Positions 15,219 to 44,484 of a DNA stretch of 64,000 nucleotides are shown piece by piece; position 1 is the stretch's first letter, and each line of letters begins with the position of its first letter. Origin of the DNA: Clostridium ljungdahlii (lineage in GTDB: Bacteria; Bacillota; Clostridia; Clostridiales; Clostridiaceae); the NCBI RefSeq assembly GCF_001636845.1, contig NZ_LITT01000035.1, forward strand, positions 248,001 through 312,000, written 5' to 3'. The position numbers and the translations under genes were made by a program. A model generated the notes under the pieces. It saw only the letters and a list, made by a program, of their open reading frames with translations. It had not been told where the DNA came from and made no database searches.

Positions 15219-16166
15219 ATGTTAAAAAGAAACCTTAAAATAATATCCGCTTTAGCCCTTGTGGTATCAATTGGTACAGGGTTTACTACAGTTAATGCAG
15301 CTTCACTTTCTAACAAGACAGGAAAATCAGTATACTGTTCTAGTAAAAATTTCAAAACAAAAAATAATGAAAATTTCTTAAAAACTAAACTTGATCCTCT
15401 AGTAACTGCAGGTACCATCACTCAAGATCAAGAAACTGCCGCATTAAATCTTCTAACTCCTTCTAAAACTGATAAAAAATCAAATACTCAAAATTTATTA
15501 AAGTCTAAGCTTGATACTCTAGTAACTGCAGGTACTATTACTCAGGATCAAGAAACTGCTGTATTAAATCTTTTCACTTCTTCCTCAACTGATACAGGAA
15601 ATAAAAATACTAAAAATTCATTAAAGTCTAAACTTGATTCCTTAGTAACTGCAGGTACTATTACTCAGGATCAGGAAACTGCTATTAAGAATTTATTTAC
15701 TTCTAATAAGGGCACTCAAGCTAAAAAAGAAAAGTCTACAGGCTCGTTGAAGACTACTCTTGATTCCTTGGTAACTGCAGGTACTATCACTCAAGATCAA
15801 GAAACTGCTATATTAAATAGCAGCAGTCAAGAGAAATCTGAAAGAAAAGCTGAAATGGATAAAATCAAAAATATGACTCAAACTGAACGTAAAGCTTATT
15901 TTCAAAGTAAAAAGACTTTAGGAAAAACTAACTTCTTAGACTCTCTAGTAACTTCAGGCACTATTACCAAAGATCAAGAAACTGCTATAAAAAATTTACT
16001 TACTTCTAATAAAAATGCGAATGTTCAAGCTAAAAAAGAAAAATTTACGAATTTGTTAAAGACTAAATTTGATACTCTTGTAACTTCAGGCACCATTACT
16101 CAGGATCAAGAAACTGCAATGATAAATGCTTTAACAGTTTCTACTAGTAAAAGCACAAAAAATTAG
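15219..16166 (+). CDS. secreted protein with six internal repeats
   Basis: A 315-residue protein with a Sec signal peptide (KRNLKIISALALVVSIGTG, cleavage likely after VNA near residue 28). The mature part is six copies of a unit whose core reads LVTAGTITQDQETA, separated by 25-50 variable Lys/Ser/Asn-rich residues. Copies 5 and 6 read LVTSGTIT. Each unit looks like two short helices with a Gly-Thr turn. Similar single units occur in DUF2680/YckD-type secreted proteins, which is my closest family guess. No sortase signal, SLH domain or membrane anchor is visible, so it is probably released or wall-bound by charge. A strong TAGGAGGT ribosome site precedes it and a strong terminator follows. Confidence 0.85.
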   Translation: MLKRNLKIISALALVVSIGTGFTTVNAASLSNKTGKSVYCSSKNFKTKNNENFLKTKLDPLVTAGTITQDQETAALNLLTPSKTDKKSNTQNLLKSKLDTLVTAGTITQDQETAVLNLFTSSSTDTGNKNTKNSLKSKLDSLVTAGTITQDQETAIKNLFTSNKGTQAKKEKSTGSLKTTLDSLVTAGTITQDQETAILNSSSQEKSERKAEMDKIKNMTQTERKAYFQSKKTLGKTNFLDSLVTSGTITKDQETAIKNLLTSNKNANVQAKKEKFTNLLKTKFDTLVTSGTITQDQETAMINALTVSTSKSTKN

Positions 16167-39207: not shown

Positions 39208-40152
39208 GTGATTAAAGTGATACACTATTTAAAGAGTATACCTGGGCCTCAATTTCTTGTACTATTTTTTAAATATGTTTTATGCGTTATTCTTTTTACT
39301 AGAATGTCTCTATTTTTTACTAGAATTAGATTAAGACATAGATATCATGAAGAGATACTTCAAGAAGATTTAATAACACCAATAGAATTAATAGTACTAA
39401 AAGATAACAATGTATGCAACGAAATTATTGAGTTCTATCTTTATAAGCTATGGAAAGACAAATATCTTTCATTAGAAGGTGAGAAAATTAATTCTTATTT
39501 AAAAACAAATAAAGATAGTAAAATCTCCTTCTTGGTTCCAGATGAAATAGAACTGGAGATTTTAAAACATTATGATAATGGAGATACCCCAGATAGTATC
39601 ATGCATTCAGAAATTTTGCTTGAAAAAGTTGAAAATCTCATTAAAAAAACTAGAAAAAAACTAGAGAATAAAAAATGTGTTAATAACAATTCATTCAATG
39701 GTAATGAAAAAATTATATGTACAGTAGGCTTCCTAGCTTTAACAATCCCAGTTATAATCAAACTTTGTCTAGGCATTATTAACGGAAAACCTATTTTGGG
39801 ATTAGTAGTTCTTTATATATTGATGTTATTTATTTACTCCTTAATTAATAGAGTCAGAAATAAACCATTAATAATAGATGAAATGGAATCAAAATATCCA
39901 AAGGTTTCTTCGTCAAACGCATCAGATGAAGAATTAGACTATTATATGTGTCTATATGGACCAACTTCATTGATAAATTATCCTGAAACAATTCTATTTA
40001 GCTCTATAATAGCAAATCAAAATCATTATTCTTCTATTGATGATTCTTCTTCAAATAATACTTCAAGAGGAGGATGCTCATCTTGCAGCAGTTGTTCTTC
40101 CTGCAGTAGCTGTAGTAGTTGTTCATCATGCGGTGGATGTGGTGGAGATTAA
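39208..40152 (+). CDS. membrane protein with a (Ser-Ser-Cys)n tail, TIGR04222-like; candidate modified-peptide precursor
   Basis: A 314-residue protein. The start (IPGPQFLVLFFKYVL) and three hydrophobic segments (about 15-36, 172-193, 197-216) resemble the TIGR04222 domain, whose members often end in low-complexity Gly/Cys tails. Here the tail is eight cysteines at exact three-residue spacing, positions 290 to 311: GGC, then six SSC, then GGC, and a final GGD. Codons for Ser and Cys alternate between synonyms, so the repeat is not a recent slippage product. The next gene, one base on, is a radical SAM/SPASM enzyme. Thioether or other crosslinking of the tail is inferred. The GTG start is uncertain; a second GTG lies nine bases on. 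Confidence 0.75.
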   Translation: MIKVIHYLKSIPGPQFLVLFFKYVLCVILFTRMSLFFTRIRLRHRYHEEILQEDLITPIELIVLKDNNVCNEIIEFYLYKLWKDKYLSLEGEKINSYLKTNKDSKISFLVPDEIELEILKHYDNGDTPDSIMHSEILLEKVENLIKKTRKKLENKKCVNNNSFNGNEKIICTVGFLALTIPVIIKLCLGIINGKPILGLVVLYILMLFIYSLINRVRNKPLIIDEMESKYPKVSSSNASDEELDYYMCLYGPTSLINYPETILFSSIIANQNHYSSIDDSSSNNTSRGGCSSCSSCSSCSSCSSCSSCGGCGGD

Positions 40153-40153
40153 T

Positions 40154-41191
40154 ATGTTTTGTGTACCAACCAGCCGATTAACCTTGCAATGTCATATAAC
40201 AGCAAAATGTAATCAAAGGTGCAAACACTGTTATCAAGAGTGCTATGCAGGAAAAGAGCTTTCATTTAATGAAATCCTTAATATTTTGGAACAATATAAA
40301 GACCTATTAAGACTTTATTCAAAAAGTAAAAATAAAGATTTTATTAGAGGACATATAAATATAACAGGAGGAGAACCTTTCACTAGGAAAGACTTTCTTC
40401 AGATATTGAACGTATTTAGTAAAAATAAAAAGTATTTCTCTTTTGGAATACTTACTAATGGCAGTTATATTACAGATGACATAGCTAAAAAATTGAAAAG
40501 TTTGAATATAGCTCATACACAAGTAAGTATTGATGGAAACAGAGAAACTCACGATGCTTTAAGAGGCAAAGGAAATTTCGATAGAACTTGGAATGCTGTT
40601 AAAATACTCAGAAAGCATAATATAAGAACTTTAGTATCATTTACGGCACACAAAGGTAATTATAAAGAATTTCCTGTAGTTGCCAGGTATGCACGAAAAT
40701 ATAAGGCTTCAAAATTATGGACAGATAGACTTGTTCCTATAGGAAATGGACAGGATATGTCGGACATGTTATTTACTTCTAAAGAGGCCTTAGAATATTT
40801 CTCTATAATAGTTAATGAAAAGAAGAAAACTCTTAGAAATAAACTAACTGGTCTTGAAATTTATTCTAATCGAGCTTTGCAATTTCTAAAAAGTGGAGAA
40901 ATGCCTTATGGATGCAGTGCAGGAGACTCATTAATTACTATTCTTGAAAATGGTGATGTACTTCCCTGCAGACGAATGCCTATACCATGTGGGAATGCTC
41001 TTAAAACTTCTCTAAAGGATATTTATTTTAATAATAATGTATTCAAAGACTTAAGAAATAAAAACATTCCTGATAAATGTTTTAAATGTGCATACTCAGA
41101 AAAATGCAGGGGAGGACTAAAATGTTTATCTTATGCACTGTATAAGGATTATAAACAAGCAGATAACTGCTGCCCTATTATTTATAAATAA
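40154..41191 (+). CDS. radical SAM protein with SPASM domain
   Basis: A 345-residue enzyme. The [4Fe-4S]/SAM motif is CNQRCKHC (Cys19, 23, 26), followed by NITGGEPFTRKDF and QVSIDGNRETHDALRG, typical barrel motifs. The C-terminal SPASM region carries CSAGDSLITILENGDVLPCR, a GNAL step, and DKCFKCAYSEKCRGGLKC, which should bind auxiliary clusters. SPASM enzymes commonly modify ribosomal peptides. I place the start at 40154 because GGTGGAG, inside the last codons of the upstream gene, lies six bases before this ATG. The two genes are separated by one base and so are probably translated together. Confidence 0.9.
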   Translation: MFCVPTSRLTLQCHITAKCNQRCKHCYQECYAGKELSFNEILNILEQYKDLLRLYSKSKNKDFIRGHINITGGEPFTRKDFLQILNVFSKNKKYFSFGILTNGSYITDDIAKKLKSLNIAHTQVSIDGNRETHDALRGKGNFDRTWNAVKILRKHNIRTLVSFTAHKGNYKEFPVVARYARKYKASKLWTDRLVPIGNGQDMSDMLFTSKEALEYFSIIVNEKKKTLRNKLTGLEIYSNRALQFLKSGEMPYGCSAGDSLITILENGDVLPCRRMPIPCGNALKTSLKDIYFNNNVFKDLRNKNIPDKCFKCAYSEKCRGGLKCLSYALYKDYKQADNCCPIIYK

Positions 41192-43096: not shown

Positions 43097-43173
43097 TGGT
43101 GCACCCAGGGAGATTCGAACTCCCGGCCTCTGGATTCGAAGTCCATCACTCTATCCAGCTGAGCTATGGGTGC
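43097..43173 (-). tRNA. tRNA-Arg (TCG)
   Basis: 77 bases with encoded CCA. The anticodon loop CTTCGAA sits on a TGGA/TCCA stem, giving TCG for CGA codons. Last gene of the cluster in the direction of transcription. An integrase remnant lies just beyond its 3' end. Confidence 0.96.
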
Positions 43174-43201
43174 TCATACTATTTAATTATAAATATGAAA
43201 A

Positions 43202-43275
43202 TGGAGCGGGTGAAGAGAATCGAACTCTCATAACTAGCTTGGAAGGCTAGCACTCTACCATTGAGTTACACCCGC
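43202..43275 (-). tRNA. tRNA-Gly (TCC), copy 1
   Basis: 74 bases with encoded CCA. Loop CTTCCAA gives anticodon TCC. The sequence is the same as the copies at 43552 and 44257. Confidence 0.96.
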
Positions 43276-43294
43276 ATATCTTTATTAAATTAAA

Positions 43295-43370
43295 TGGTCG
43301 GGGTGACAGGGATTGAACCTGCGACCTCATGGTCCCAAACCACGCGCGCTCCCATCTGCGCCACACCCCG
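43295..43370 (-). tRNA. tRNA-Pro (TGG), copy 1
   Basis: 76 bases with encoded CCA. Loop TTTGGGA gives anticodon TGG. An identical copy lies at 44409. Confidence 0.96.
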
Positions 43371-43387
43371 TTATTAAATTGAACTTA

Positions 43388-43463
43388 TGGTGCGTCATCG
43401 GGGGCTCGAACCCCGGACAACCTGATTAAGAGTCAGATGCTCTACCAACTGAGCTAATAACGC
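43388..43463 (-). tRNA. tRNA-Lys (CTT), copy 1
   Basis: 76 bases with encoded CCA. Loop CTCTTAA gives anticodon CTT. The acceptor stem GCGTTAT/ATGACGC differs by a few bases from the copy at 44096, which has GCGCCAT. Confidence 0.95.
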
Positions 43464-43469
43464 TAATCA

Positions 43470-43546
43470 TGGTGCGTCTTAAGGGATTCGAACCCCCGGC
43501 ACACGGCTTAGAAGGCCGTTGCTCTATCCAACTGAGCTAAAGACGC
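43470..43546 (-). tRNA. tRNA-Arg (TCT), copy 1
   Basis: 77 bases with encoded CCA. Loop CTTCTAA gives anticodon TCT, reading AGA, the main Arg codon of AT-rich genomes. Same as the copy at 44175. Confidence 0.96.
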
Positions 43547-43551
43547 ATATT

Positions 43552-43625
43552 TGGAGCGGGTGAAGAGAATCGAACTCTCATAACTAGCTTGGAAGGCTAG
43601 CACTCTACCATTGAGTTACACCCGC
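43552..43625 (-). tRNA. tRNA-Gly (TCC), copy 2
   Basis: 74 bases with encoded CCA, anticodon TCC. Only five bases separate it from the neighbouring tRNA-Arg (TCT). Confidence 0.96.
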
Positions 43626-43633
43626 AATTTATT

Positions 43634-43708
43634 TGGAGCGGAAGACGAGATTCGAACTCGCGACGTTCACCTTGGCAAGGTGACGCTCTACCACTGAGCC
43701 ACTCCCGC
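43634..43708 (-). tRNA. tRNA-Gly (GCC)
   Basis: 75 bases with encoded CCA. Loop TTGCCAA gives anticodon GCC for GGC/GGT. Confidence 0.96.
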
Positions 43709-43739
43709 ATATATAAAAGTTGTACTTATTATTACAAAT

Positions 43740-43823
43740 GGTGCAGGTGAAGGGAGTCGAACCCCCACGCCGTAAAGCGCTAGATCCTAAGTCTAGTGCG
43801 TCTGCCAATTCCGCCACACCTGC
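43740..43823 (-). tRNA. tRNA-Leu (TAG)
   Basis: 84 bases with encoded CCA and a long variable arm, as expected for class II tRNAs. Loop CTTAGGA gives anticodon TAG for CTN codons. Confidence 0.96.
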
Positions 43824-43853
43824 ATAGACTAATGTAATAATTTAAAATTAAAA

Positions 43854-43929
43854 TGGTGGCTTACCGGGGAATCGAACCCCGGACAACATGATTAAAAGTC
43901 ATGTGCTCTACCAACTGAGCTAGTAAACC
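43854..43929 (-). tRNA. tRNA-Lys (TTT)
   Basis: 76 bases with encoded CCA. Loop CTTTTAA gives anticodon TTT for AAA/AAG. Confidence 0.96.
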
Positions 43930-43933
43930 ATTT

Positions 43934-44008
43934 TGGCTGGGATGGCAGGATTTGAACCTACGAATGATGGAGTCAAAGTCCATTGCCTTACCACTTGGCT
44001 ACACCCCA
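43934..44008 (-). tRNA. tRNA-Gln (TTG)
   Basis: 75 bases with encoded CCA. Loop CTTTGAC gives anticodon TTG. The acceptor stem starts with T (TGGGGTG/CATCCCA), usual for bacterial tRNA-Gln. GatCAB encoded at 51-54 kb probably makes Gln-tRNA by amidating Glu on this tRNA. Confidence 0.95.
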
Positions 44009-44012
44009 ACAG

Positions 44013-44089
44013 TGGGGTGAACGATGGGGCTCGAACCCACGACAACCAGAACCACAATCTGGCGCTCTACCAACTGAACTACGTTCACC
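44013..44089 (-). tRNA. tRNA-His (GTG)
   Basis: Loop TTGTGGT gives anticodon GTG. The extra 5' G (position -1, at 44089) is encoded and pairs with discriminator C73, the identity mark of tRNA-His. CCA is encoded. Confidence 0.96.
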
Positions 44090-44095
44090 ACATCT

Positions 44096-44171
44096 TGGTG
44101 CGCCATCGGGGACTCGAACCCCGGGCAACCTGATTAAGAGTCAGATGCTCTACCAACTGAGCTAATGGCGC
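44096..44171 (-). tRNA. tRNA-Lys (CTT), copy 2
   Basis: 76 bases with encoded CCA, anticodon CTT. The acceptor stem is GCGCCAT/ATGGCGC, more stable than in copy 1. Confidence 0.95.
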
Positions 44172-44174
44172 TTA

Positions 44175-44251
44175 TGGTGCGTCTTAAGGGATTCGAACCC
44201 CCGGCACACGGCTTAGAAGGCCGTTGCTCTATCCAACTGAGCTAAAGACGC
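44175..44251 (-). tRNA. tRNA-Arg (TCT), copy 2
   Basis: 77 bases with encoded CCA, anticodon TCT, same as the gene at 43470. Confidence 0.96.
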
Positions 44252-44256
44252 ACGCT

Positions 44257-44330
44257 TGGAGCGGGTGAAGAGAATCGAACTCTCATAACTAGCTTGGAAG
44301 GCTAGCACTCTACCATTGAGTTACACCCGC
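44257..44330 (-). tRNA. tRNA-Gly (TCC), copy 3
   Basis: 74 bases with encoded CCA, anticodon TCC. Five bases from tRNA-Arg (TCT), the same spacing as at 43546/43552, which marks a block duplication. Confidence 0.96.
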
Positions 44331-44408
44331 ATAATCTTTCATGTCAAATAAAAAGAATTCACTACTTTATCTCTTCCTTACATTTAACTAAGCTCTATCT
44401 TAATTAAA

Positions 44409-44484
44409 TGGTCGGGGTGACAGGGATTGAACCTGCGACCTCATGGTCCCAAACCACGCGCGCTCCCATCTGCGCCACACCCCG
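44409..44484 (-). tRNA. tRNA-Pro (TGG), copy 2
   Basis: 76 bases with encoded CCA, anticodon TGG. First gene of the cluster, about 62 bases after the predicted -10 box. Confidence 0.96.

Follow-up and report, generated by a model that had tools for sequence, protein, structure and literature searches.

Gene arrangement at the locus

The window, a stretch of 64,000 nucleotides from Clostridium ljungdahlii, carries two adjacent genes on its forward strand that are considered here. The upstream gene (39208..40152) encodes a membrane protein of 314 amino acids, whose body is TIGR04222/DUF2207-like as judged from its relatives. The frame has 314 codons from a GTG at 39208, and either this GTG or the one at 39217 may be the start codon. 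The downstream gene (40154..41191) encodes a radical SAM/SPASM enzyme of 345 amino acids, as judged from Pfam matches and an invariant set of Cys residues.

The C-terminal 25 residues of the membrane protein, CSSCSSCSSCSSCSSCSSCGGCGGD (residues 290–314; 40075..40149), form the tail that we propose as the substrate of the enzyme, and such a tail is kept in relatives. Eight Cys occur at residues 290, 293 and so on to 311, all at i+3 spacing, in units of Ser-Ser-Cys or Gly-Gly-Cys, and GGD closes the tail. The translated frame thus agrees with an earlier reading made from the sequence alone (the sequence-only reading), which had described a 314-residue protein ending in eight such Cys. When the last 40 residues were shuffled 100,000 times, the longest i+3 Cys run was six (24 times), and a run of eight never arose.

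The 12 Ser codons of the tail are divided between TCN (six) and AGY (six). In the last 24 codons, the window and its near relative G136 differ at seven synonymous positions and at no amino-acid-changing position. The mixed Ser codons and the silent drift speak against a fresh DNA repeat, a possibility that we rejected, and indicate that the window tail is kept by selection. The codon argument holds mainly for the window's own tail, as in several other carriers the tail Ser codons are all TCN or all AGY.

Assignment of the body was less direct. A TIGR04222-type membrane protein had been proposed; the relatives are of the TIGR04222/DUF2207 type, but the window protein itself gave no TIGR04222 match at E ≤ 10 (family cut-off 43). 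Four of the six aligned members match TIGR04222 weakly (best 5.9e-4), and the window protein scores 17.3 bits against DUF2207_C, under the Pfam cut-off of 33. Of the 62 matches in a fold search with the model of the membrane protein, the best had an E-value of 0.88, and E ≤ 0.001 was reached by none.

The enzyme frame opens with ATG one base past the TAA of the membrane protein, as the earlier reading had stated. Pfam matched Radical_SAM (5.6e-21) and SPASM (8.8e-9). The CX3CX2C motif is formed by Cys 19, 23 and 26, and seven SPASM Cys lie at 254, 272, 309, 312, 318, 324 and 340; all ten, together with the motif PCRRxPI, are invariant in the 23 close enzymes described below. The core of the modelled enzyme (pLDDT 85.8) begins at about residue 10 of 345, there is no N-terminal RRE, and a Pfam scan of the pair and its upstream neighbour gave no RRE family. 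The neighbours of the pair are an exonuclease/BRCT protein (by Pfam) and a tRNA array; others were judged from the frame list. In keeping with the sequence-only reading, the frame list and the Pfam scan of the three proteins gave no sign of a peptidase, exporter or RRE next to the pair. The array, just past the pair, comprises 15 tRNA genes on the minus strand (window 43097–44484).

The last tail codons, GGTGGAGAT (40141..40149, forward strand), are by eye a plausible ribosome site of the enzyme gene, in keeping with the sequence-only reading, which placed this site inside the last Gly codons. In all 18 direct pairs found (see below), the first conserved enzyme motif lies 11–41 nt past the tail stop. 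Because the Gly codons may serve the next gene in this way, the tail end (GGCGGD, GGGGAD) may be constrained twice, and its conservation may be partly due to the ribosome site. The CSS units of the tail are outside this constraint.

Close relatives of the enzyme

We searched for the enzyme in genomes of the family (146), order (225), class (391) and phylum (299); the samples overlap, and E-values are not strictly comparable between searches because the queries differ. Close enzymes were defined by E ≤ 1e-100, and the DNA around each of the 23 distinct enzymes was read. In 18 cases, the gene immediately upstream encodes a protein with a Cys-repeat tail; four enzymes lie in ordinary RiPP clusters, and one (G567) is placed otherwise. 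The pair for which the sequence-only reading had proposed a genome search therefore recurs. The 18 direct pairs span five families of the class, and their surroundings differ.

The tail proteins of these pairs have several kinds of body. Ten resemble the window protein. Three are DUF2207-like, with a signal-like segment and an ectodomain (G210, G191 and G198), and a full DUF2207 protein is the tail carrier in G524; G210 and G524, the two DUF2207-type carriers scanned, both passed the DUF2207 cut-off. TIGR04222 proteins carry the tail in G540 and G398, the body of the latter being split over two frames. The carriers of G335 and G472 have longer bodies with extra N-terminal helices and no Pfam or NCBIfam match.

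The close enzymes in RiPP clusters belong to two clusters (G198 and G188), where they lie beside short Cys-rich precursors, further radical SAM-like enzymes and an ABC exporter with a peptidase domain. TIGR01193 was over its cut-off for the G198 exporter, and the G188 exporter was assigned by eye. Each cluster (L055 4735–12547 in G198; L056 2821–10452 in G188) has two tandem enzymes of the window clade. Two near-identical precursors with Cys-rich core ends were present in the G198 cluster and one was seen in G188. The G567 enzyme is encoded three genes downstream of a protein whose C-terminal end has a GCGSSCSGC stretch and a run of Asn. At this locus (L083 2464–7213), two different radical SAM genes flank this protein of 123–129 amino acids and two others, one channel-like by eye and a third protein.

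No tail was found within about 1.5 kb on either side of five distant enzymes (G039, G642, a second copy in G398, G557 and G333; E 9.4e-66 to 1.4e-79), nor within the same distance of five weaker enzymes of the family-genome search. The distribution was patchy: enzymes at E ≤ 1e-100 were found in 14 of 225 order genomes and eight of 391 class genomes and, among the matches listed, in two of 13 genomes of the same genus. The phylum search gave matches in two of 299 genomes, namely the source genome itself and G642, which is without a tail. A search of the genome contigs with the enzyme gave one distant relative.

A tree of 30 enzymes (the 23 close enzymes and seven outgroups chosen by us) placed the 23 in one group with support of 97/94. 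The window enzyme was closer to the enzymes of the RiPP clusters and of G335, G472 and G567 (93/93) than to those of other pairs with similar bodies. The tail label was more clustered on the tree than in any of 500 shuffles, although near-copies contribute to such clustering. Genes for an ABC transporter 3' of the pair were considered as functional partners and rejected; they were present in five loci of genus g17 (L024–L027 and L041) but at none of the others that were read.

Conservation of the tail and the body

Within the like-bodied group, the body is 18–20% identical to that of the window protein, G136, the near relative, apart, and about half of the residues of the enzymes are identical. 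Bodies vary between carriers (TIGR04222-like, DUF2207 and longer forms), and the tail persists. The measured carriers have four to eight tail Cys, with gaps of 4–7 in places. The tail of G472 is composed of Cys and Gly plus one last Asp.

Strong matches to the body (E ≤ 1e-84) numbered 11 in 218 order genomes. Ten have the enzyme, and in the remaining one (G201, L041) the tail protein is intact and the adjacent radical SAM gene is decayed to a remnant. A Cys tail lacking a radical SAM gene had been named as the case that would speak against the proposal; it was thus encountered once, in the form of a remnant, and the other ten of 11 keep the enzyme. The G201 genome contains no other close enzyme (next best E 1.1e-34). 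Since G184, the sister of G201, has an open enzyme gene, we read the loss in G201 as recent.

As a control, we used DUF2207_C, which gave 75 match rows in 148 class genomes; 30 loci among the matches listed were read. Like the tail carriers, DUF2207 proteins have a low-complexity tail at the same place, but it was Gly-rich in 25 of the 30 loci and, unlike the window tail, had Cys repeats in none; in the frames read at the other five, a tail of this kind was missing. No radical SAM neighbour was detected at these 30 loci by a motif test on frames above 200 amino acids. The source genome itself has an ordinary DUF2207 protein of this kind (L126, contig C36), whose tail is Gly-rich and free of Cys. 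TIGR04222 was over its cut-off in two of 391 class genomes, G540 and G398, both of which have the pair; its weak matches (L092–L103) showed no Cys tails.

A further tail was seen in G410 (L135 4407–7462). The protein is similar to DUF2207 and TIGR04222, with both matches under the cut-off, and has ten tail Cys at i+4 in SACH units. The radical SAM enzyme encoded after it is of another type and is extended at the N-terminus; the arrangement appears to have arisen in parallel.

Predicted topology of the tail protein

The predicted layout of the window protein is an N-terminal transmembrane helix, a cytosolic winged-helix-like part, two more transmembrane helices and a disordered tail. In its model (pLDDT 71.7), the winged-helix-like part covers residues 58–100, and the last two helices cover 163–191 and 197–215. 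Lys and Arg were counted in the 15 residues on each side of the last hydrophobic segment of 19 tail proteins, including G201 and G410 and leaving out G398; the third segment was used for G540, its fourth being doubtful. The tail side had more of them in 17 of the 19 and the same number in two, although in short-looped proteins the preceding 15 residues overlap the previous segment. Wherever the second and third helices of a like-bodied protein were both called, the turn joining them has 0–2 charges. In the DUF2207 carriers, a signal-like first segment is followed by an ectodomain and this by a transmembrane segment, an order that would also leave the tail inside. These predictions place the tail in the cytosol.

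Relationship to characterised enzymes

By fold, the enzyme model came closest to SkfB, SuiB, PqqE, anSME, BlsE and TigE. By sequence profile, the best solved structures were SkfB, CteB (5wgg) and anSME, all three of which act on Cys peptides. In the anSME structures 4k36 and 4k37, the motif at the SPASM Cys is PCDFY; it is PCRR in all 23 close enzymes. The Asp of sulfatase maturases that follows this Cys, part of the GX4C motif, is the catalytic base. An identity as anaerobic sulfatase maturase was rejected, because Arg takes the place of this Asp in 23 of 23.

The entry 5wgg is listed merely as a radical SAM protein, and its name CteB was taken from the accessible part of PMC6231123. According to the same part of that source, the seven C-terminal Cys of AlbA serve two clusters, an open site at Aux I of CteB holds a substrate Cys, and function in this subfamily is hard to predict from similarity. 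The window enzyme has a set of seven SPASM Cys like that of AlbA, from which we infer that one auxiliary cluster may have an open site for substrate thiolates. SuiB and PqqE form carbon–carbon bonds, as the part of PMC8326336 available to us states.

Comparison with known systems

The best-scoring NCBIfam model for the window enzyme was TIGR04340 of the ACGX system, in which a Cys-repeat target likewise lies just upstream. Membership was rejected, as the window enzyme scored 155.4 bits and six relatives 132–162 against a cut-off of 400. The ACGX targets are short frames (79–110 codons at most) of ACG units in all five over-cut-off loci, whereas the proposed target here is a CSS/CGG repeat on a long membrane protein without ACGX repeats. 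These five loci (L140–L144, from five class genomes) have the short ACG-repeat frames upstream of the TIGR04340 enzymes.

Radical SAM and SPASM/twitch domains and Cys substrates are shared with the sactipeptide and ranthipeptide synthases SkfB, AlbA, CteB and PapB. The window pair differs from these in that no RRE, leader, peptidase or exporter was recognised and the substrate would be the tail of a membrane protein. The window enzyme was under the cut-off of each of the 25 families listed out of 79, PapB and SkfB included. The pair would work like a RiPP pair, yet it stays under the cut-offs of those named RiPP families that were tested and does not share their cluster features.

The MNIO-linked TIGR04222 proteins, as presented in the accessible part of PMC12452194, are alike in body type, in a low-complexity C-terminal tail of Ser, Gly and Cys that is a proposed enzyme substrate and in an adjacent enzyme gene. 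They differ in that the enzyme is an MNIO, here a radical SAM/SPASM enzyme, and in that their tails are placed in the periplasm there, whereas the tail is predicted to be cytosolic here. We scanned for MNIO (PF05114) in 21 genomes with a Cys-repeat tail, counting G567 (a Cys-rich tail), G410 (a different radical SAM gene) and G201 (a decayed one). None of the 21 had a match, compared with two of 14 control rings. An MNIO acting in trans was rejected on this result, and a radical SAM enzyme could fill the place of the MNIO.

Proposed function and alternatives

We consider it highly likely that the tail is the substrate of the radical SAM/SPASM enzyme. We also lean towards a substrate–enzyme pair in which the tail would be crosslinked by Cys thioethers and the product left on the membrane protein. 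In this mechanism, the membrane protein would be anchored by three transmembrane helices with its flexible Cys-repeat tail in the cytosol, and the enzyme would be translated from the ribosome site within the last tail codons. SAM would be cleaved at the CX3CX2C cluster and hydrogen atoms abstracted along the tail, while the open site of one auxiliary cluster in the seven-Cys SPASM domain may hold tail thiolates, as in CteB. The likeliest outcome would be a series of small thioethers formed intramolecularly by the Cys residues, a hypothesis to which we give even chances. The tail of G472 implies a common reaction that is independent of the Ser side chain, and the acceptor would then be either an alpha-carbon of the backbone or an adjacent Cys. 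Neither leader cleavage nor export would follow. The product would stay on the membrane protein, perhaps with a role in metal or redox handling.

The main rival to thioether formation is Cys oxidation. The tail Cys could be modified without a crosslink, by oxidation or desulfurisation (formylglycine, thioaldehyde or dehydroalanine) or into heterocycles, to give a metal-binding tail, much as MNIO acts on bufferins and possibly on TIGR04222 tails. The place of anSME among the closest solved structures agrees with this, but the replacement of its catalytic Asp by Arg does not, and sulfatase maturases convert a single residue of a set motif instead of working along a repeat. SbtM, the NCBIfam thio(seleno)oxazole maturase, was the best family for one relative (L030) among the seven proteins scanned and the second for two (L084 and L080). 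The accessible part of PMC12452194 argues that MNIO enzymes act on Cys tails in some TIGR04222 proteins, and the lack of MNIO in the tail genomes scanned leaves a place that a radical SAM enzyme could take. On balance we regard modification without crosslinks as unlikely, though as the strongest competitor.

An unmodified cytosolic tail that binds a metal or a cluster, with the enzyme performing another step of the same pathway, appears improbable. CXXCXXC repeats could bind metal as such, thiols stay reduced in the cytosol where the tail is predicted to lie, and G201 retains its tail despite the decayed enzyme gene. The enzyme, however, tracks the tail and not the body across several body types, and close relatives of it are found in RiPP clusters, beside small precursors rich in Cys. 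A gene order that is accidental and reflects translational coupling with no functional meaning could draw on the Gly-rich tail end doubling as a ribosome site; we give it hardly any weight, since direct pairing was found for 18 of the 23 close enzymes, in five families and different surroundings, and the tail label clusters on the tree beyond all 500 shuffles, near-copies contributing.

Those radical SAM enzymes that act on peptides are known chiefly as makers of secreted, leader-cleaved products. What is new in the preferred reading is a peptide-modifying radical SAM enzyme whose substrate is, very probably, a tail that the membrane protein keeps permanently. We did not find the tail/enzyme pair described in the open-access literature that we searched non-exhaustively. 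More tentatively, the pairs may represent a protein-tethered class of RiPP, in which clostridia graft Cys tails on TIGR04222 and DUF2207 proteins and a dedicated radical SAM enzyme crosslinks them at the cytosolic face without cleavage or export, as an anaerobic counterpart of what the oxygen-dependent MNIO is proposed to do to such tails elsewhere. If true, radical SAM peptide chemistry would take place on a permanent part of a membrane protein, part of two large uncharacterised families, TIGR04222 and DUF2207, would gain a function, and anaerobes would be predicted to use radical SAM enzymes where aerobes use MNIO enzymes. The two-gene pair is a defined system for testing, and the G472 tail would be a near-ideal minimal substrate for studying the chemistry.

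Elsewhere in the window, a frame of 315 amino acids (15219–16166) contains several near-identical repeats around LVTAGTITQDQETA.
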